From an uncultured Acidimicrobiaceae bacterium (GTDB taxonomy: Bacteria; Actinomycetota; Acidimicrobiia; Acidimicrobiales; Ilumatobacteraceae): 64,000 nt of DNA. Location: contig CAIXIJ010000001.1 in assembly GCA_903919455.1 (NCBI GenBank), forward strand, positions 1 through 64,000, in the 5' to 3' direction. Under the pieces are notes generated by a model. It saw only the letters and a list, made by a program, of their open reading frames with translations, was not told where the DNA came from and searched no databases. Numbering within the stretch: the first letter of the stretch is position 1; each line of letters begins with the position of its first letter. This document shows positions 15,909 to 27,367 of this stretch, piece by piece. Position numbers and translations under genes: made by a program.

Positions 15909-17189
<1,281 letters not shown>

Positions 17190-17220
17190 TTCTGCGTCGC
17201 GCAGCGATGCAGCCATCGTG

Positions 17221-18516
17221 ATGACATACCAGAACGCACTCGACTACCTCGACGCGCACGCGAGCTACGAGACCACGGGCCGCATCGAGTCGCCCACCCT
17301 CGACCGCATGCGCACCCTCGTGGCCGCCATGGGCGATCCGCAGCTCTCGTACCCGGTCATCCACATCACCGGAACGAACGGCAAGGGTTCCACCACGCAG
17401 ATGATCACCCGGCTGCTGATGGCGCACGGCCTCACCGTCGGCACCTACACCAGCCCGCACCTCGAGCGCTTGAACGAGCGCATCAGCGTGAACTGCGAAC
17501 CCATCCCCGACGACGACTTCGCCGAGCAGATCGCTGCGATCGCCGATCTCGAGGTGCTCACCGGGGCCCGCCCTTCGTACTTCGAAGCGCTGACGGCCGC
17601 GGCCTATCGCTGGTTCGCCGATGTGGCGGTCGATGTGGCGGTCATCGAGGTGGGTTTGCTCGGTCGATGGGACGCCACGAACGTGTGCGAGTCGCAGGTG
17701 GCGGTGGTCACCAACATCGGTCTCGATCACACCGAGTTCGCGGGGCCCACGCGGGCGCACATCGCCGCGGAGAAGTCGGGCATCATCAAGCCCACCAGCG
17801 CGGTGGTGATTGGCGAGTCCGACCAAGAACTCGTGCAGGTGTTCCGCGACGCTGGCGGAGCCTCCTACTTCGTGCGCGGTGAAGAGTTCGATGTACTCGA
17901 ACAGCAACTCGCTCTCGGCGGTCGCCTCATCGACGTGCGTACGCCTACCACCGTGTACCCCGAGATCTTCGTGCCGTTGCACGGTCGGCACCAGGCCGAC
18001 AATGCCGCGGTGGCGCTCACTGCGGTGGAGGCGTTCTTTGCATCGCCGGTTCCAGGCGACATCGTGGCTGAGGGGTTCGCCGACGTGAAGATGGCGGGCC
18101 GGTTCGAGGTGATGGGTCATCAGCCCCTCGTCATCGTCGATGGGGCGCACAACCCGGCGGGTGCCGACTCGTGTGCGACGGTGTTCTTCGACGACTTCGA
18201 ACCTGAAGGCCGCCGTATCCTCGTGGTCGGATGCCTGCGCGGCCGCGACCCGCGCGAGATGTTGGCGGCGTTGCGCGCCGACGAATTCGACGTCGTCATC
18301 ACGTGCACTGCACCCAGTCCTCGTGGCTTGCCGGCCGAGGAACTATCGATCGCCGCCCGCGAGCTTGGATGCGACGACGTGGTGCAGGCTGAGACCGTGG
18401 AAGAAGCCATCGACATGGCGAGGGCCGACTCCATGGCCGAGGACGCCGTCGTCATCACCGGCTCGCTCTACATCGTGGGTGCTGCCCGCCCCTATCTCCG
18501 CAAGGTCATCAACTGA
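17221..18516 (+). CDS. folC: folylpolyglutamate synthase / dihydrofolate synthase
   Basis: The 431-residue Mur-ligase-family enzyme adds glutamate to folates (and possibly to dihydropteroate) using ATP. The P-loop GTNGKGS is at 51-57, followed by TSPHLERLNERI. The central-domain motif IEVGLLGRWDATN and the C-terminal VDGAHNPAG are also present. ATG 17221 is preferred; a GTG directly before it (17218) would add one residue. It follows clpX by 31 nt, a common actinobacterial arrangement, and precedes ndk by 73 nt. Confidence 0.93.
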   Translation: MTYQNALDYLDAHASYETTGRIESPTLDRMRTLVAAMGDPQLSYPVIHITGTNGKGSTTQMITRLLMAHGLTVGTYTSPHLERLNERISVNCEPIPDDDFAEQIAAIADLEVLTGARPSYFEALTAAAYRWFADVAVDVAVIEVGLLGRWDATNVCESQVAVVTNIGLDHTEFAGPTRAHIAAEKSGIIKPTSAVVIGESDQELVQVFRDAGGASYFVRGEEFDVLEQQLALGGRLIDVRTPTTVYPEIFVPLHGRHQADNAAVALTAVEAFFASPVPGDIVAEGFADVKMAGRFEVMGHQPLVIVDGAHNPAGADSCATVFFDDFEPEGRRILVVGCLRGRDPREMLAALRADEFDVVITCTAPSPRGLPAEELSIAARELGCDDVVQAETVEEAIDMARADSMAEDAVVITGSLYIVGAARPYLRKVIN

Positions 18517-18575
18517 TCACCTTGCCGTGAACGGAAGTTCGCGCGGGATCGAGGCGGTGAGCGACGAAGGGTCGG

Positions 18576-18581
18576 TAGCCT
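18576..18581 (+). promoter_or_regulatory. predicted -10 (TAGCCT) for ndk, leaderless
   Basis: TAGCCT is followed by 8 nt and the ATG of ndk with no Shine-Dalgarno sequence. Confidence 0.45.
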
Positions 18582-18589
18582 TGCTCGCC

Positions 18590-19000
18590 ATGTCCGACCG
18601 TACCCTCGTTCTTCTCAAGCCCGATGCCGTCCAGCGCAAGCTCGCCGGCCAGATCATCGCCCGCATCGAGGCCAAGGGTCTCGACATCGTGGCCCTGGAC
18701 CTTCGTCAGCTCGACGAGGCAACCCTGTCGCAGCACTACGCCGAGCACGTCGGCAAGGGCTTCTACGCCGACCTCGTGGCCTTCATGAGCAGCGGCCCCG
18801 TCGTGGCCATGGTGGTCGAGGGCCCGGAAGACACGTGGGAAGTGATGCGCACGCTCATGGGCGCCACCAACTCGCGTAAGGCCGCAGGCGGCACCATCCG
18901 TGGCGACCTCAGCGCCTCGTTCACCGAGAACCTCATCCACGGCAGCGACTCGCTGGAGTCCGCGCAGCGTGAAATCGGGATCTTCTTCCCGAATCTGTAA
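18590..19000 (+). CDS. ndk: nucleoside diphosphate kinase
   Basis: This 136-residue enzyme transfers the gamma-phosphate between nucleoside tri- and diphosphates. It has the KPDAVQR start motif, the active-site phosphohistidine H117 in NLIHGSDS, and the standard length. ATG 18590 is in the expected place for the family. It lies between folC and the mre cluster on the same strand, probably with its own promoter. Confidence 0.96.
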   Translation: MSDRTLVLLKPDAVQRKLAGQIIARIEAKGLDIVALDLRQLDEATLSQHYAEHVGKGFYADLVAFMSSGPVVAMVVEGPEDTWEVMRTLMGATNSRKAAGGTIRGDLSASFTENLIHGSDSLESAQREIGIFFPNL

Positions 19001-19016
19001 CAATCGGATGGGCGGC

Positions 19017-19022
19017 TACACT
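19017..19022 (+). promoter_or_regulatory. predicted -10 (TACACT) for the mre cluster
   Basis: TACACT lies 16 nt after the ndk stop. Eight nt downstream is the ATG of a nine-codon ORF (19031-19060) that overlaps mreB, so the transcript would start at or just before that ATG. Confidence 0.45.
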
Positions 19023-19030
19023 GGCCCGTC

Positions 19031-19060
19031 ATGTTCACGCCGAGTCGAGGAGGCCACTAA
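19031..19060 (+). CDS. predicted nine-codon leader peptide overlapping mreB (MFTPSRGGH)
   Basis: ATG 19031 opens a nine-codon frame ending in TAA at 19058-19060, which overlaps the mreB ATG as TAATG. The start is 8 nt after TACACT, the spacing of leaderless starts here. The codons for Arg-Gly-Gly also contain the GAGGAGG ribosome-binding site of mreB, so ribosomes translating the leader would cover and then release that site. This suggests translational coupling of the elongation cluster. It is a prediction from layout only. Confidence 0.4.
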   Translation: MFTPSRGGH

Positions 19061-20094
19061 TGGCCCGTAGCAATCCGCTGGCCCTGGGCCGCGATCTTGC
19101 GATCGACCTCGGAACCGCCAACACCCTTATCTATGCCCGCGGCCAGGGCGTCGTCTTGAACGAGCCCTCGGTCGTGGCCATCGACATCACCGACGGCCGG
19201 CCGGTCGCCGTGGGGTTGGAAGCGAAGCGGATGATGGGCCGCACCCCCGGCCGGATCAAGACCATCCGGCCCCTCAAGGACGGCGTCATCGCCGACTTCG
19301 AGGTCTGCGAAAAGATGCTGCGCTACTTCATCCAGAAGGTGCACGCCAGTCGCTGGAGCAAGCCGCGCATGGTCATCTGCGTGCCGTCCGGCATCACCGG
19401 TGTGGAACAACGCGCCGTGCAAGACGCTGCCGAGTATGCGGGTGCTCGCAAGCCGGTGCACATCATCGAAGAGCCCATGGCGGCCGCCATCGGCGCCGAC
19501 ATGCCGGTGCACGAGCCCAGCGGCAACATGATCGTCGACATCGGCGGTGGCACCACCGAGGTGGCCGTCATCTCGCTCGGCGGCATCGTGACGGCGCAGT
19601 CGGTGCGAGTGGCCGGCGACGAGCTCGACGATGCCGTGATGCAGTACGTGAAGAAGGAATTCTCGCTGGCCATCGGCGACCGCACCGCCGAAGAAATCAA
19701 GATCCACATGGGTTCGGCGTGGCCGCTCGACGAAGAACTCACCGCCGACATTCGTGGTCGCGACCTCATCTCCGGCCTGCCCCGCACCATTCCTCTCACC
19801 ACCGAACAGGTGCGCGAGGCCCTTGCCGAGCCGGTTTCTGCCATTGTCGATGCCGTGAAGACCACGCTCGACCGCACGCCGCCGGAACTCGCGGCCGACA
19901 TCATGGAACAGGGCATCATGATCACCGGTGGTGGCGCCCTGCTCGCCGGCCTCGACCGCCGCCTGTCGCACGAGACCGGTATGCCCATCAACATCGCGCG
20001 CGACCCGCTGTTCAGCGTGGTCATCGGCTCTGGCCGTGCGCTCGAGAACATCGATGCGATGCGGGGGCTCATGTCGCTCGGTGGCGACGAATAA
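19060..20094 (+). CDS. mreB: rod shape-determining protein MreB
   Basis: This 344-residue bacterial actin polymerises on the inner membrane and guides the elongasome. Actin-fold phosphate loops are visible as IDLGTANTLIYARG and IVDIGGGTTEVAV, with the adenosine motif ITGGGALLAGL. ATG 19060 has GAGGAGG about 6 nt upstream. It heads mreBCD-PBP2-rodA, so the organism is expected to be rod-shaped or to grow by lateral wall insertion, unlike polar-growing actinobacteria without MreB. Confidence 0.97.
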   Translation: MARSNPLALGRDLAIDLGTANTLIYARGQGVVLNEPSVVAIDITDGRPVAVGLEAKRMMGRTPGRIKTIRPLKDGVIADFEVCEKMLRYFIQKVHASRWSKPRMVICVPSGITGVEQRAVQDAAEYAGARKPVHIIEEPMAAAIGADMPVHEPSGNMIVDIGGGTTEVAVISLGGIVTAQSVRVAGDELDDAVMQYVKKEFSLAIGDRTAEEIKIHMGSAWPLDEELTADIRGRDLISGLPRTIPLTTEQVREALAEPVSAIVDAVKTTLDRTPPELAADIMEQGIMITGGGALLAGLDRRLSHETGMPINIARDPLFSVVIGSGRALENIDAMRGLMSLGGDE

Positions 20095-20112
20095 GCCACG
20101 GCCGGACCCACC

Positions 20113-21195
20113 ATGTTCTCGGGCCTCAGCCGCCGCAGAGTCCTTCTGCTCGTGGTGCTCACGTGTGTGCTGCTCATCACGCTGGATAAGCGCGGTAACG
20201 CCGTCATCGATCGTGCGCGCAGCCTCTTCGCCCGTGTGGTCCAGCCCATCGACACCGCCACCCAGGCGTTGATGCTGCCCGTCGAGCGAGCATGGAACGG
20301 CATCGTTCACTTCGATGATCTGCAGAGCGAGAACGAGGCGCTGCGCGACCAGCTCGAGCACATGCGCGGCAACGATGTGGAGGCCCGCTCCGCTGTGCTG
20401 CAGTACCGAGAGTTGCTGAAGATCAGCCAGCTCACATCGAAGTTCCAGTTCGACACCGTGAAGGCGCAGGTGGTTGGTGAATCGCCGAGCAACTTCCAGA
20501 ACACAGTGGAGATCAACGTCGGCGGCCGCCAGGGTGTGGCGGTCGGCATGCCCGTCACCGACGGTGCAGGTCTGATCGGTCGCATCACGAAGGTGTTCGC
20601 CGACCGCAGCATCGTGCTGCTGGTCACCGACCCGGGCTATTCCATCGCGGCACAGGTGCTGTCGTCGTCCGATTCGCCCGGCACCGGCACCACCACGCCC
20701 ACCGAGAGCACGTTGCTGAACGGCCAGCCGGTGAGCGACCTCACCAGCAGCACCACCTCCACCACCACGACCACCACTACCCAGCCGTTGCCGCCCGAGC
20801 TGCAGCCGCTGAACACCACCACCACGGCGGCGGCCGTGACGCCGGGTGTCACCACCTCCACCGCGGTCGCCGTGCCCACCTCCACCACGTTGCCGCCGGT
20901 GGTGCGCGAGACCGGCACGCTGCAGGGCCAGGGTGCGGATCAGCCGATGTTGCTGCGCTTCGTCGACACCACCTCGGCTGTCACCAGTGTGAAGGTGGGT
21001 GCAGTGGTCGACACCGCTGGCGGCACCAGCAGCAACGCACCGCAAGGCATCCCCATCGGCATCATCACTCATATCGAACGGCAGACCGGCAGCAGCAGCG
21101 CCCTCGTGGAGGTCACCCCGAACGCGAACCTGAAGAGTCTGAACTTCGTGGCCGTGGTGCTGTACGTCTCCAACCAGGACGCCATCGGTAAGTAG
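20113..21195 (+). CDS. mreC: rod shape-determining protein MreC with Thr-rich insertion
   Basis: The 360-residue bitopic membrane protein has a transmembrane helix at about 9-25, a coiled coil (about 70-110, LQSENEALRDQLEHM) and the periplasmic beta domain (SPSNFQNTVEINVGGRQGV). It links MreB to PBP2. From about residue 190 to 265 the beta domain is interrupted by a low-complexity insert rich in Thr, Ser and Pro ([19 protein letters not shown]), after which the fold resumes (MLLRFVDTTSAVTSVKVG). The insert is much longer than the usual loop. It starts 18 nt after mreB. Confidence 0.93.
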   Translation: MFSGLSRRRVLLLVVLTCVLLITLDKRGNAVIDRARSLFARVVQPIDTATQALMLPVERAWNGIVHFDDLQSENEALRDQLEHMRGNDVEARSAVLQYRELLKISQLTSKFQFDTVKAQVVGESPSNFQNTVEINVGGRQGVAVGMPVTDGAGLIGRITKVFADRSIVLLVTDPGYSIAAQVLSSSDSPGTGTTTPTESTLLNGQPVSDLTSSTTSTTTTTTTQPLPPELQPLNTTTTAAAVTPGVTTSTAVAVPTSTTLPPVVRETGTLQGQGADQPMLLRFVDTTSAVTSVKVGAVVDTAGGTSSNAPQGIPIGIITHIERQTGSSSALVEVTPNANLKSLNFVAVVLYVSNQDAIGK

Positions 21196-21197
21196 CC

Positions 21198-21722
21198 GTG
21201 CGAAACATCATTCTCGGCCCACTGCTCCGGCTCGTCCCTGTCGGTCTGGTCGCGTTGTCCATCCAGCGTGTGATTTTCGGGGCCCACCCGATCTACGGCG
21301 TGAAGTTGCAGTTTGTCCTCGCGCTCGTGGTGGCAGCCGGAGCGGGGGGTGGCGCCGATCGAGGCGCGGTGGCGGGGTTCGTGTTGGGTCTCCTCTACGA
21401 CGTCAGTGGCAACACCCCGCTCGGTCTGATGGCCCTTGCGTACGGCTTGGCCGGGATGACTGCGGGCTATGTGCACAGCTTCACCCCAGATCCTCAGTGG
21501 TGGCTGGCGTCGATCTTCGCGTTCGTGGGTGCGGCAGTGGGGGAGATCGCCATTCCCGTGGCGGAGGTCATCACCGGTCAAAGCGGCTGGATCACCTCCG
21601 ATGCACGCATCACGATTCCAGTGGTGGCAGGCTTCGCTGCGCTGATGTGTCCGGCGCTGATGCCGGTGGGTCGGTGGATGATGGGTGTGAAACGCAAGAA
21701 GTGGAAGGCGATGCTCGAATGA
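21198..21722 (+). CDS. mreD: rod shape-determining protein MreD
   Basis: The 174-residue, very hydrophobic protein has about five membrane segments, as expected for MreD. The start is GTG 21198, two bases after the mreC stop, and length and position fit. MreD completes the membrane part of the elongasome between MreC and PBP2/RodA. A short basic tail (MGVKRKKWKAMLE) is cytoplasmic by charge. Confidence 0.9.
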   Translation: MRNIILGPLLRLVPVGLVALSIQRVIFGAHPIYGVKLQFVLALVVAAGAGGGADRGAVAGFVLGLLYDVSGNTPLGLMALAYGLAGMTAGYVHSFTPDPQWWLASIFAFVGAAVGEIAIPVAEVITGQSGWITSDARITIPVVAGFAALMCPALMPVGRWMMGVKRKKWKAMLE

Positions 21723-21797
21723 TTGCTTGTTTCATTCGGGTCGCCGCCCGTTGCCCCGCGCGGCCACTTTCGTCATCTGATCGACAAGAATGTCGCG

Positions 21798-24110
21798 ATG
21801 GCCGTTGACAAGCGCTCCGCCCGGCTGGGCGTCCTCGCCACGGTCTCGTTGCTGCTCATCGGCCTCCTCGGCGCGCGCCTGTGGTTCTTGCAGGGTGTGA
21901 AGAGCGCCGACTACCAGGCCACTGTCGAAGCAGCCAAGGTGCGCGAGGTGTTCGTGGCGCCCGAGCGCGGCCGCATCTTCGATGCCAAGGGTCGAGTGGT
22001 GGCCGACAACCAGCGCATCCTCACGGTCACGGTCGACTGGAACGTGCTGCGCAAGGCGAAGAACCGGTTGGCGTTGTTCGAACGTCTGTCGGGGCCACTG
22101 AAGACCCCGGTCGACGATCTCATGCGTCGCTTCGAGCCGTGCTACCCGGCCAAGGCAGGTTCGTGCGGCAAGAGCCAACGCTTCGATTCGTTGTTGCCGC
22201 TGCCGTTGAAAGAAGACGTCGACGAGTCGGTGGTGAACTTCCTCAAGGAGCGCAGCGAGGACTACCCGGGCGTGGATGTGGTGGAGCAATGGCGGCGGGT
22301 GTATCCCTTCGCGCCGTTGGCCTCGCACGTGGTGGGCTTCATGGGTTCCATCAACGCCGACAATTTGAAGAGCTATCTCGCCCAGGGCTACAAGCGCAAC
22401 GAACGCGTTGGCCAGTTCGGTGTGGAGAGCAGCATGGAACGTGAGCTCCACGGCCAGTGGGGCAAGCGGGTGTACGAGGTGGATGCCTCGGGCGCCATCG
22501 TGCGTGAACTGATCGATCAGCGTGTCGAGCCGGTAGCCGGCTTCGATGTGCAGTTGAGCATCGACCTCGACATGCAGCAGTACGCGGAGCAGGCGCTCCA
22601 GACCGAACTGCGCAACCGTCGCAACCTGGCCACCGATATCGACCAGCGCGACTCGGCGCCGCATAACCCGTGCGATCTGAAGACCAACTGCAAGACCCGC
22701 GTCTACCGTCGAACGCTGCCCGACGGGAGCAAGGAGGACTACCCGGAGTGGGTCCAGCACAAGGCGCCCGCAGGCTCGGTGGTGGTGATGAATCACGACA
22801 ACGGCCAGATCATCGCGATGGCCAGCTATCCCACCTTCGACAACCGTTGGATGGAAAGCGGCATCGGGATCGACAAGTACCGCCAGTTGTTCCCCAGCGT
22901 GCAGGCCGATGGCGTGACCCCCATCGACCCCGACCAGTCGATCCTGGTGAACCGGGCGGTGCAGGGCAACTACAACCTCGGCTCCACCATCAAACCGTTC
23001 GTGGCGTGGGCGGCAATGCATTCGGGCCTCATCGATGCCAACACCGTGTGGCGGGACCAGGGCACCTACACCCTGCAAGCCATCGACCCCAGCGATTGCC
23101 AGCAGAACGGCGGTATTGCTCGGTGCATCTTCAAGAACGCCACCAGCAAGGCCACCCAGTTGCCGGCTGTCTACGGCCCGCTCACGGTGAGCGATGCGCT
23201 GGCAGTGAGCAGCGACACGTTCTTCTACCACTTGGGTGAACAGTTCTGGCAGCTCAGTGAGAACCTGCCCGATCAGAAGAGCCTGCTGAAAGAAGACCTG
23301 CAGCGATTCGGCTTCGGCACCAAGACGGGCGTTCAGTTGCCGTTCGAATGGAAGGGCCGTGTGCCCGACGACGCGGTGAAGAAGGCGCTGGTCGACAAGG
23401 GTGTGCTGGCGAAGGGTGAGGTGCCGCGCCTGGTGGTGGGCGACAACGTGCAGGTTGCTATCGGCCAAGGGCTCATGGCTGCAACGCCCTTGCAGATCAC
23501 CGATGCCTACGCCACGATCGCCAACGGCGGCTTTCGCCTGCAGCCCAGCATTGTGAAGGCCATCTACGCACCACTCACGCCTGATGCCAGCCCTGGCGTG
23601 GCCGACCTGAAGGCCGGCGAAGTCCGCCAGTCGTTCGACGGTCCGGTGGTGAAGGACATTCTGGAGATGCCGCCGGAGATCCTCGGGCCCATCAAGGCCG
23701 GTCTGCATCGGGTGGTTCACGGTAGGGGCGTGGACTTCGGCATCTATCACGCCACCACCGGCGAGATTCTGTTCAAGGGCTTCCCCGTGAACATCTCGGG
23801 CAAGACCGGCACTGCGCAGGGCGCTGCAACGCTGCCGTGGAACGACTCGTCCGCGTTCGGCGCCTACAGCGAGCAGCCCGAACTGCCGTACACGGTGGTC
23901 AGCTATCTGGAGAAGAGCGGGTACGGCTCGAAGGCCGCGGCTCCCGTCGCCAAGTGCATGTTCCTGGCACTCGCCGGCCAAGCAACCACCGACCCGGTGT
24001 TCGCCAGCGACCCACTCGATCTGAACTCCACCGTGGCTGCTCAACCGCAGGCCCTCACGGACTCCACGTGCCTTGGTGTCTCTGGCGGCGGCGACCTCGG
24101 TCGAGGGTGA
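21798..24110 (+). CDS. mrdA: penicillin-binding protein 2, elongasome transpeptidase
   Basis: The 770-residue class B PBP has a transmembrane anchor (about 10-30), a dimerisation/pedestal domain with the ERGRIFDAKG motif, and a transpeptidase domain. The active-site Ser is in STIK (GSTIKPF); the second motif is SSD (VSSDTFFYH); the third is KTG (SGKTGTAQG). It cross-links lateral-wall peptidoglycan with RodA. ATG 21798 is chosen; an in-frame TTG at 21723 next to the mreD stop would add 25 residues that look non-coding. rodA begins 4 nt after the stop. A Cys pair (CDLKTNCKTR) sits in an insertion of the transpeptidase domain. Confidence 0.93.
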   Translation: MAVDKRSARLGVLATVSLLLIGLLGARLWFLQGVKSADYQATVEAAKVREVFVAPERGRIFDAKGRVVADNQRILTVTVDWNVLRKAKNRLALFERLSGPLKTPVDDLMRRFEPCYPAKAGSCGKSQRFDSLLPLPLKEDVDESVVNFLKERSEDYPGVDVVEQWRRVYPFAPLASHVVGFMGSINADNLKSYLAQGYKRNERVGQFGVESSMERELHGQWGKRVYEVDASGAIVRELIDQRVEPVAGFDVQLSIDLDMQQYAEQALQTELRNRRNLATDIDQRDSAPHNPCDLKTNCKTRVYRRTLPDGSKEDYPEWVQHKAPAGSVVVMNHDNGQIIAMASYPTFDNRWMESGIGIDKYRQLFPSVQADGVTPIDPDQSILVNRAVQGNYNLGSTIKPFVAWAAMHSGLIDANTVWRDQGTYTLQAIDPSDCQQNGGIARCIFKNATSKATQLPAVYGPLTVSDALAVSSDTFFYHLGEQFWQLSENLPDQKSLLKEDLQRFGFGTKTGVQLPFEWKGRVPDDAVKKALVDKGVLAKGEVPRLVVGDNVQVAIGQGLMAATPLQITDAYATIANGGFRLQPSIVKAIYAPLTPDASPGVADLKAGEVRQSFDGPVVKDILEMPPEILGPIKAGLHRVVHGRGVDFGIYHATTGEILFKGFPVNISGKTGTAQGAATLPWNDSSAFGAYSEQPELPYTVVSYLEKSGYGSKAAAPVAKCMFLALAGQATTDPVFASDPLDLNSTVAAQPQALTDSTCLGVSGGGDLGRG

Positions 24111-25334: not shown

Positions 25335-25340
25335 TACACT
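25335..25340 (+). promoter_or_regulatory. predicted -10 (TACACT), radical SAM operon, leaderless
   Basis: TACACT is followed by 8 nt and ATG 25349. No ribosome-binding site is visible in the 61-nt gap after rodA. Confidence 0.5.
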
Positions 25341-25348
25341 GCAGCAAC

Positions 25349-27367
25349 ATGACTTCTCTCTGGGCGCGGGTCGAACCGCTCCTGGCCCGGGTACAAAAAC
25401 CAGCCCGTTACATCGGGTGCGAGGACGGCGCCATCACCCCCCGGCATGGGCCCGGCAAGGTGTCCTGGCTGCTCGCCTACCCCGATACGTACGAAATTGG
25501 CTTGCCCAACCAGGGGCTCCAGATCCTCAACGAAATTCTGAACGAGCGCGACGATGCCGTCGCAGAGCGCACCTACGCGCCCTGGCACGATCTCGAAACC
25601 TTGATGCGTGAGCGCAACGTGCCGCTGTTCTCGGTGGATACACACCGTGCCGCGGGCGATTTCGACCTGTTCGCGTTCAGCCTGGCGGCCGAATTGGTCT
25701 ACACGAACGTGATCAACATGATCGATCTCGCCGGTGTGGCCGTGAGGTCGGCGCACCGCGAGACCACCGACCCGCTCATCGTGCTCGGCGGTCACTGCGC
25801 GTTCAACCCCGAGCCCTTGGCCGACTACGTCGACCTGGTGGTGCTGGGTGAGGGCGAAGAGGTCATCGGCGACATCACCGAGGTGGTGCGCGAATGGAAG
25901 GCGTCGGGGCAGACGCCAGGCAGCCGCGAGGGCGTGCTCCGTGAGCTCTCCAAGATTCCCGGTGTGTATGCGCCAGCGATGTACGACGTGGAGTACGACG
26001 GGCCGGCGCTCCGTGCGGTCACGCCGAAGTACGCCGATGTGCCAGCCGTAGTGCACAAGCGCACGGTGGCCGACCTGGGGCAGTGGCCGTACCCGAAGAG
26101 CCCGTTGGCCCCGCTCACCGAAGTGGTTCACGACCGCCTCGCAGTGGAGGTGTTCCGTGGTTGCACCCGGGGCTGCCGTTTCTGCCAGGCGGGGATGATC
26201 ACCCGACCCGTGCGCGAACGTCCGGCGGATCAGGTGCGCACCATGATTCAGAACGGCCTGCGCCGCACCGGATACGACGAAGTGAGCCTCACGTCGCTCA
26301 GCACGGCCGACTTCAGCGGTATCGAGCAGGTCACTCAGGCCATCAACCCGGCCGGCTGTGGCACCTCGGAGACCATCTCCATCTCACTGCCGTCGTTGCG
26401 GGTGGACGCCTTCACCGTGGGGCTTGCCGGCCAGGTGGCGGGCGGTCGCCGCAGTGGCCTCACGTTCGCCCCGGAGGCTGGCAGTTGGCGCCTTCGCCAG
26501 GTGATCAACAAGCTCATCACCGAAGAAGACCTGTACGGCGCGGTGGAGAGCGCGTTCTCACAGGGCTGGCATCGGGCGAAGTTGTACTTTCTCACGGGCC
26601 TGCCCACCGAGACCGACGCCGACACGCTGGGTATCGTCGACCTCGCCCGCAACTGCGTGCAGATCGGGCGCAAGCACACCAACCGCGCCAGCGTCACCGT
26701 CAGCCTTGGTGGGTTCGTACCCAAGCCGCACACGCCGTTCCAGTGGTTCGGTCAGAACACCAACGACGAACTGCGCCGCAAGGTGCAACTGGTGCGCGAG
26801 GCCAGCGGGCGCGCCAAGGGCGTGAACGTGAAGTGGCACGACCCATCCGCCACGCTGGCCGAAGGCATCTCGGCCCGCGGCGACCGGCGCATCGGGGCCG
26901 TGATGGAGCGGGTCTGGCGAGCCGGTGGCATCTTCCAGGAGTGGAGCGAGTTCTTCCGACTGGGCCGCTGGGAAGAGGCGATGGCCGCCGAGGGCTTGTC
27001 GATCGATTGGTATGTGCATCGCCACCGCGACGAACACGAAGTGCTTCCGTGGGATCACCTGTCGGCTGGTCTGCACAAGGACTTCCTGTGGCTCGACTGG
27101 AAAGAGGCGCTCGCCGAGCATGGCCTGCCCGATTGCCGATGGACCCCCTGCTACGACTGCGGTGTGTGCACCGGATACGGCATCGAGCACATCGTGGCCT
27201 CGCCCGTTCCTCCTGCCGGTGGCAGCCAGGGGACCGGCCAAGACCTGAGCCGCGGTGGGGAAGTGCCCGTGGAACTGCTGCCGCGCCGGCGGGAGCACGT
27301 CCCCGTGCCTGCCACCGCCACCGAGTCGGCCACTGAGTCGGCGTCCGACAGCGAGGCCGTGTCGTGA
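25349..27367 (+). CDS. B12-binding-type radical SAM protein (TIGR03960-like)
   Basis: The 672-residue protein has an N-terminal cobalamin-binding-like Rossmann region (LIVLGGHCAFNPEP, VVLGEGEEV) and a radical SAM core with CTRGCRFC binding the 4Fe-4S cluster. A C-terminal domain follows with extra cysteines (CRWTPCYDCGVCTG). This matches the TIGR03960 family, which is almost always followed by a DUF2344/TIGR03936 protein, as here (GTGA overlap). The reaction is unknown; proximity to RNase E/G and L21/L27 suggests RNA or ribosome modification, which is inference. The last 30 residues are a Ser/Ala/Glu low-complexity tail. Confidence 0.9.
   Translation: MTSLWARVEPLLARVQKPARYIGCEDGAITPRHGPGKVSWLLAYPDTYEIGLPNQGLQILNEILNERDDAVAERTYAPWHDLETLMRERNVPLFSVDTHRAAGDFDLFAFSLAAELVYTNVINMIDLAGVAVRSAHRETTDPLIVLGGHCAFNPEPLADYVDLVVLGEGEEVIGDITEVVREWKASGQTPGSREGVLRELSKIPGVYAPAMYDVEYDGPALRAVTPKYADVPAVVHKRTVADLGQWPYPKSPLAPLTEVVHDRLAVEVFRGCTRGCRFCQAGMITRPVRERPADQVRTMIQNGLRRTGYDEVSLTSLSTADFSGIEQVTQAINPAGCGTSETISISLPSLRVDAFTVGLAGQVAGGRRSGLTFAPEAGSWRLRQVINKLITEEDLYGAVESAFSQGWHRAKLYFLTGLPTETDADTLGIVDLARNCVQIGRKHTNRASVTVSLGGFVPKPHTPFQWFGQNTNDELRRKVQLVREASGRAKGVNVKWHDPSATLAEGISARGDRRIGAVMERVWRAGGIFQEWSEFFRLGRWEEAMAAEGLSIDWYVHRHRDEHEVLPWDHLSAGLHKDFLWLDWKEALAEHGLPDCRWTPCYDCGVCTGYGIEHIVASPVPPAGGSQGTGQDLSRGGEVPVELLPRRREHVPVPATATESATESASDSEAVS

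Follow-up and report, generated by a model that had tools for sequence, protein, structure and literature searches.

Does the nine-codon reading frame that ends on the first base of mreB, in the 64,000-nucleotide stretch of DNA analysed here (the window), feed ribosomes into this core cell-shape gene from the extreme 5' end of its mRNA, and if so, does mreB depend on it? The original prediction held that transcription starts at or just before the ATG of the frame (about 19029-19031), that translation of this leaderless frame controls access to the mreB ribosome-binding site, and that elongasome expression is thereby coupled to initiation on leaderless RNA. The features involved are collected in Table 1.

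Table 1. Features of the ndk-mreB region, with positions in the window and the evidence for each.
Feature	Position	Strand	Evidence
ndk (nucleoside-diphosphate kinase), upstream neighbour	18590..19000	+	NF001908, 179.7 bits, cut-off 155; stop TAA 18998-19000
TACACT, predicted -10 element of the mreB promoter	19017..19022	+	TANNNT here in 13/13 readable genus genomes
Predicted region of transcription initiation, at A19031 (N8) or G19028 (N5)	19028..19031	+	inferred from own-genome TANNNT-to-RTG spacing
Nine-codon leader frame, MFTPSRGGH-stop	19031..19060	+	sequence; equal length and one-base overlap in G109, G120, G087
Shine-Dalgarno (SD) GAGGAGG of mreB, within leader codons 6-8	19047..19053	+	sequence; GGAGG at 6-nt spacing in 13/13 readable genus genomes
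mreB	19060..20094	+	NF010539, 519 bits (cut-off 293); TIGR00904, 483 bits (cut-off 366)

The geometry on which the original prediction was built is exact throughout 19017-19062. TACACT is separated from the leader ATG (19031-19033) by the 8-nt spacer GGCCCGTC (19023-19030), and the frame reads ATG TTC ACG CCG AGT CGA GGA GGC CAC TAA. Its TAA (19058-19060) and the mreB ATG (19060-19062) have A19060 in common, giving a TAATG with a 1-nt overlap, and the GAGGAGG inside the leader codons ends 6 nt before the mreB ATG. The gap between ndk and mreB, which run in the same direction, is 59 nt; of the other genes, mreC passed TIGR00219, and a RodA-like gene passed the subfamily cut-off of NF037961 and missed the equivalog cut-off of TIGR02210. 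No Rfam match was found in 18400-19500 up to an E value of 1, no terminator-like site in a scan of 18400-19300 and no tRNA in 17000-22000. Elsewhere in the same genome lies another MreB-like gene (L002; G000:C127:12426-13412), whose product shares 53% identity with the MreB of the window, and many relatives carry paralogues similar to it, some of which have an in-frame stop inside the match.

Fifteen genomes of the genus to which the window belongs (g1) are present in our collection, and the mreB leader is readable in 13 of them, the window included. First, second and sixth positions of the box are kept in all 13 (TACACT in ten, TAGACT in two and TAGCAT in one), while the bases around it vary. 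We infer that TACACT belongs to the mreB promoter, as originally proposed, and take it for a -10 box of housekeeping type. The frame that follows is patchier. Seven of the 13 have a leader ATG at 7 to 9 nucleotides from the box (N7-9), and in six of these seven the stop codon overlaps the mreB start by one base, although the frames are 9, 21 or 25 codons long and encode differing peptides. The window genome (G000), G109, G120 and G087 have an ATG at N8, nine codons and the one-base overlap; their peptides are MFTPSRGGH (twice), MFMPSSGGH and MFGRRRGGV, and the window uses TAA as the stop codon, the other three TGA. The overlap is also formed by a 21-codon frame with its ATG at N9 (G098) and by a 25-codon frame with its ATG at N7 (G033), whereas the 15-codon frame of G124 (ATG at N9) ends 11 bases before mreB. 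Among the seven genomes that lack an ATG frame with the one-base overlap, one (G125) has a GTG frame of eight codons at N10 that is coupled by overlap, plus an uncoupled TTG at N8. A leader starting with ATG or GTG at N4-12 is absent from five of the 13: G063 has only an uncoupled TTG at N7, and G122, G010, G049 and G075 have no TTG there either, G049 carrying a GTG at N1. TGATG often precedes mreB in this genus, whether the frame is present or absent. Conservation upstream of mreB, which had been expected, is found for the box in every genome and for the overlap in six, with frames of different lengths; part of the genus keeps the mreB upstream sequence and lacks the short frame, an outcome that the original prediction had itself counted against the idea. 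We propose that the leader frame has been gained or lost several times. A role for the peptide itself was considered and rejected, as most codons that differ between G000, G120 and G087 also encode a different amino acid.

Whether an ATG at N8 would be used as a 5'-terminal start was approached through the own genome of the window, an assembly of 3.55 Mb in 150 contigs from which 686,564 bases (687 kb) were sampled and 524 genes predicted with a home-made gene caller. In this sample candidate ATG or GTG starts lie at N6, N7, N8 and N9 after TANNNT in 45, 52, 24 and 15 cases, respectively, a sum of 136 compared with 4.3 on average for each offset of N10-40, and 134 of the 524 genes have such a candidate start at N6-9. 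From this excess leaderless mRNAs look common in the genome. Transcription that begins on the start codon itself should give a spacing of N6-9, which makes leaderless initiation at TACACT-N8-ATG plausible. To this extent the predicted leaderless character of the leader gains support, with N8 inside the peak; it is qualified by G19028 at N5, a possible rival to A19031 at N8 as the predicted start, which would leave a three-base leader.

The arrangement at mreB is real, yet by itself it is no rarer than chance would allow over a genome. TACACT-N4..12-ATG occurs twice in the 64-kb window where 0.64 would be expected, and 15 of 100 shuffles reach two. The other TACACT-N8-ATG (25335-25351) opens a 672-codon gene at 25349 that is predicted to be leaderless, with box and spacing as at the mreB leader; this gene lies just after the RodA-like gene and belongs to the TIGR03960 B12-binding radical SAM family (685 bits, cut-off 462). 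Short frames were defined as those of 3-60 codons ahead of a gene that start at N6-9 after TANNNT, and were taken as coupled if their stop shares 1 or 4 bases with a candidate gene start. Eight short frames were seen in the own-genome sample and about nine were expected from N10-40, a baseline of 73 short frames, 31 of them overlapping, over 31 offsets. For coupled frames there was likewise no excess in the sample, with four seen and about four expected. It follows that the single case at mreB carries little weight alone, and that the weight rests on the relatives. Two leaderless-type frames elsewhere in the own genome, MRRMWACA (L191, position 6625) and MSHEAPAR (L156, position 12950), share 4 nt with a candidate GTG that follows.

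The best reading of these data, one that we hold tentatively while considering that it may well be right, is an optional, cis-acting, coupled leaderless upstream frame at mreB of the kind known in mycobacteria. According to this model, transcription of mreB from TACACT would begin on the ATG at 19031 or no more than a few bases from it. The message would offer two entries: 30S subunits would bind at GAGGAGG, and 70S ribosomes would load on the AUG at the 5' terminus. In the second case the ribosome would read nine codons and stop at the UAA with the mreB SD under its anti-SD, from where it could restart on the overlapping mreB AUG. The leader peptide would have no role, the act of translation serving as a cis-acting auxiliary ribosome-loading device, and loading through the leader would supplement direct initiation from the SD at mreB and might compete with it. 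Promoter, 5' end, leader translation and re-initiation are the four elements that we infer, starting from what can be read directly in the sequence, namely the geometry, a frame that is present in only part of the genus, an SD that stays constant and a genome with a leaderless signature.

This optional upstream frame ranks first as an explanation, with an incidental 5'-terminal AUG a close second and somewhat less plausible. In that account the promoter is real and produces an SD-led mRNA whose leader measures about 29 nt, the SD is the sole route to mreB initiation, and the ATG, the frame and the overlap are by-products of base composition. It accords with the patchiness of the frame in the genus and with the lack of a genome-wide excess of coupled frames at N6-9. 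It also accords with the mreB SD itself: GGAGG-N6-ATG is found in all 13 readable genomes, frame or no frame, so that mreB should be startable without a leader. The distribution of starts within the genus argues the other way. Over the 13 loci, scored with the main mreB start, six coupled frames lie at N6-9 and three over the other 27 offsets (P 0.0003 unclustered, P 0.03 when merged as one cluster). The frame is moreover kept in both G098 and G033, whose leaders differ in length by 12 nt and whose fourfold-site identity is only 0.47; both retain ATG-TGG-GCC and a frame that runs into the overlap.

How far shared descent and composition account for this pattern was estimated on a tree built from ndk, mreB and part of mreC and pruned to 20 loci. 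By parsimony the state 'ATG or GTG at N6-9' requires four changes on this tree; two changes suffice for the coupled state, and counting G125 makes it three. Of 336 fourfold sites, 170 do not vary within the four-genome clade, and the cube of this fraction puts the neutral retention of the ATG there at about 0.13. When each genus genome was shuffled for composition, an RTG appeared at N6-9 with a frequency of 0.04-0.21 and a coupled RTG with a frequency of 0-0.06. Taking eight lineages, counted by hand and on the same loci from which the hypothesis was formed, the probability of at least three ATG carriers at a rate of 0.10 is 0.04, and that of at least two coupled lineages at a rate of 0.03 is 0.02.

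The order-wide excess, which is weak without the genus of the window, also accords with an incidental AUG. Our order-wide set comprises 180 unique mreB upstream regions from 203 loci and is non-random, as 60 stretches were hand-picked from the listed order-wide matches and the rest were taken as they came, with membership of the order presumed. Coupled frames after any TANNNT number 12 at N6-9 compared with 12-13, according to the exclusions made, over the other 27 offsets. Loci were then merged by single linkage at 88%, 84% and 80% (116, 39 and 12 clusters), and cluster-offset pairs were counted. With 116 clusters there are 11 pairs at N6-9 against 13 at other offsets if any candidate mreB start is allowed (P 8e-5), and 8 against 10 with the main start (P 0.001). 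The corresponding P values are 0.03 and 0.10 with 39 clusters, and 0.17 and 0.23 with 12. If every short frame at N6-9 is counted, coupled or not, the P values are 0.025, 0.38 and 0.34 at 116, 39 and 12 clusters. Removal of the genus of the window leaves 167 loci, with counts of five at N6-9 against nine elsewhere for any candidate start (P 0.026) and three against seven for the main start (P 0.13). These counts indicate that the order-wide signal is carried mainly by the genus in which the arrangement was discovered, and the claim of order-wide recurrence is weakened accordingly. The coupled frames at N6-9 outside the genus are 32-codon ATG frames after TAGCCT in L098 and L102 (at N9 and N8, respectively), a 22-codon GTG frame at N7 in L202, and frames in L017 and L100 that are coupled with an alternative mreB start only. 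The peptides of L098 and L102 look alike (MPAAPIYQRSG... and MPAASTYQRSG...), and by eye a CTTGTGC that is common to several neighbours can be seen before their TAGCCT as a candidate -35 box.

Twenty-eight loci were anchored by eye on a visible box, for which they had been chosen, so that its presence in them is by construction. They contain 22 RTGs at N0-30, ten of which lie at N6-9, a concentration that speaks against an incidental AUG even though one of the ten is the mreB start of G008 and four come from one clade. In the sister genus g9 (G008; L013) the TACACT lies 7 nt before the mreB ATG itself, and the TACACT-N7-ATG of G008 leads us to predict that mreB is directly leaderless there, without an SD. 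Genus g18 has a GTG at N6 in one of five loci, in a frame that ends 29 bases before the main start, and genus g21 has no RTG at N6-9 in any of eight loci. Frames anchored on TAACAT at N7-9 in genera g12, g19 and g26 were not counted as support, as they extend 22-70 nt into mreB in a different frame; after TAACAT these genera have 15 RTGs at N10-30 and five, of which one is a duplicate, at N6-9.

It is unlikely that the mreB message comes mainly from a start further upstream, at ndk or folC, with the TACACT start minor or unused. The short distance to ndk, in the same direction, would suit such a read-through message, and a simple scan of 18400-19300 for two-hexamer sigma-70 promoters found none. 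In 23 of 85 scanned loci, duplicates included (L028-L063), the ndk stop codon forms part of a -10-like box, TGTAACAT or TGTAATAT (TAACAT or TAATAT), that would also fit this account. On the other hand, TANNNT is held at one place in all 13 genus genomes amid variable bases, and TACACT directly precedes mreB at N7 in G008. The box at the ndk stop lies about 19 nt upstream of the place of the TACACT of the window, and possibly reflects promoter turnover.

An equally improbable extension of the optional upstream frame is that a leaderless, stop-start-coupled micro-ORF has been invented repeatedly at the mreB promoter, within the genus and also in a handful of lineages elsewhere in the order, alongside the predicted directly leaderless mreB of one genus. 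Part of elongasome synthesis would then be fed by 70S loading on 5'-terminal AUGs and would track the capacity for leaderless initiation.

A stronger, regulatory form, in which leader translation gates mreB and elongasome output follows the capacity for leaderless (70S) initiation, is the most doubtful of these alternatives. This is the form in which the original prediction was cast, and the position of the SD inside the leader, together with the one-base overlap of stop and start, speaks for it. In coupling by RNA unfolding, structure hides the SD or start codon of the second gene until the first is translated. A small hairpin of five pairs can also be predicted to form from GGCCACUAAUGGCC around the leader stop and the mreB start; this sequence is absent in G087, and folding of the leader RNA of the window is no stronger than that of shuffles (z 0.16). 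Mean unpaired probabilities of the SD, under a uniform GGAGG definition and with the GTG frame of G125 counted among the carriers, are 0.43, 0.38 and 0.39 at three fold lengths in the eight carriers and 0.53, 0.41 and 0.45 in the five non-carriers. Accessibility is thus slightly lower in carriers at each length, but the differences are not significant either for the SD (Mann-Whitney P 0.24, 0.46 and 0.51) or for the mreB AUG (P 0.61, 1.0 and 0.27). An earlier hint of lower SD accessibility in carriers had arisen with a loosely chosen SD match and is not significant under the uniform definition. As five of the 13 genomes retain the SD and its 6-nt spacing without an ATG or GTG leader, the proposal that mreB requires translation of the leader, or is controlled by it, finds no support; control of the elongasome by the leader is not supported yet. 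Leader peptides of amino-acid attenuation systems contain a run of regulatory codons and are followed by terminator and antiterminator hairpins. Such a role is rejected for MFTPSRGGH, which has no regulatory codon run, is variable among relatives and is accompanied by neither a terminator-like site in 18400-19300 nor an Rfam match up to an E value of 1 in 18400-19500.

The closest parallel to the optional upstream frame is found in mycobacteria, where, in the sections available to us, leaderless small ORFs coupled by RTGA tetramers are described as over-represented, and the linkage sometimes persists where the peptide sequence has changed (Shell et al., 2015; PMC4633059). The mreB leader resembles these in its predicted leaderless RTG, in being a short frame directly ahead of an annotated gene, at nine codons within their range of 5-50 residues, and in its stop overlapping the next start. 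It differs in that the overlap is 1 nt (TAATG or TGATG) rather than an RTGA link, in the strong SD of the downstream gene, in the lack of a genome-wide excess in our own-genome sample, and in that the mycobacterial 5' ends were measured while ours are predicted from TANNNT spacing. The mreB leader may nevertheless work like a coupled pair, though not an RTGA-coupled one.

A second parallel is provided by E. coli, in which 5'-terminal AUGs on SD-led mRNAs are translatable and can raise, lower or hardly change downstream expression (Beck et al., 2016; PMC4965119, from the part available). There, loss of the 5'-uAUG reduced ptrB expression to less than 8%, a precedent for the regulatory form, whereas 'many' 5'-uAUG mutants were minimally affected, as an incidental AUG would imply. 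As in ptrB, the predicted 5'-end AUG here stands on an mRNA in which the main gene is served by a separate SD and start codon, for mreB the GGAGG and ATG kept in all 13 readable genomes of the genus. The E. coli cases were tested by lacZ fusions and toeprints, and in the same part of the text a stop/start overlap is not a defining feature of them. Termination-reinitiation from a short frame that overlaps the start of the main gene, a further similarity, is described in the available text for uPPE2 and ppe2 of M. tuberculosis (Kipkorir et al., 2024; PMC11260477). In that system, however, uPPE2 lies behind a B12 riboswitch, is started from an SD and overlaps ppe2 through AUGA, and ppe2 has no SD and depends on uPPE2 for its translation; mreB keeps its SD, and a dependence on the leader would be hypothetical. 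In the portion available, a review of translational coupling sets out two models, RNA unfolding and ribosome scanning.

Among the literature matches listed, judged by title and the start of the abstract, none concerned a leaderless frame at mreB, and no match was found for leaderless initiation in Ilumatobacter. The available part of PMC4282423 treats leaderless sspA and contains neither 'mreB promoter' nor 'mreB transcript', and that of PMC5243855 gives an mreB distance of 84-86 nt in Leptospira.

If the optional upstream frame at mreB is real, it would extend coupled leaderless frames from mycobacteria to a distant and mostly uncultured group of actinobacteria, and would bring them to a core cell-shape gene. 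The genus and its relatives would then offer a natural series on one promoter, comprising no frame, coupled frames of several lengths and a predicted directly leaderless gene, with which leaderless loading could be measured. If the frame is incidental, it shows instead how readily such frames arise in genomes with many leaderless promoters.
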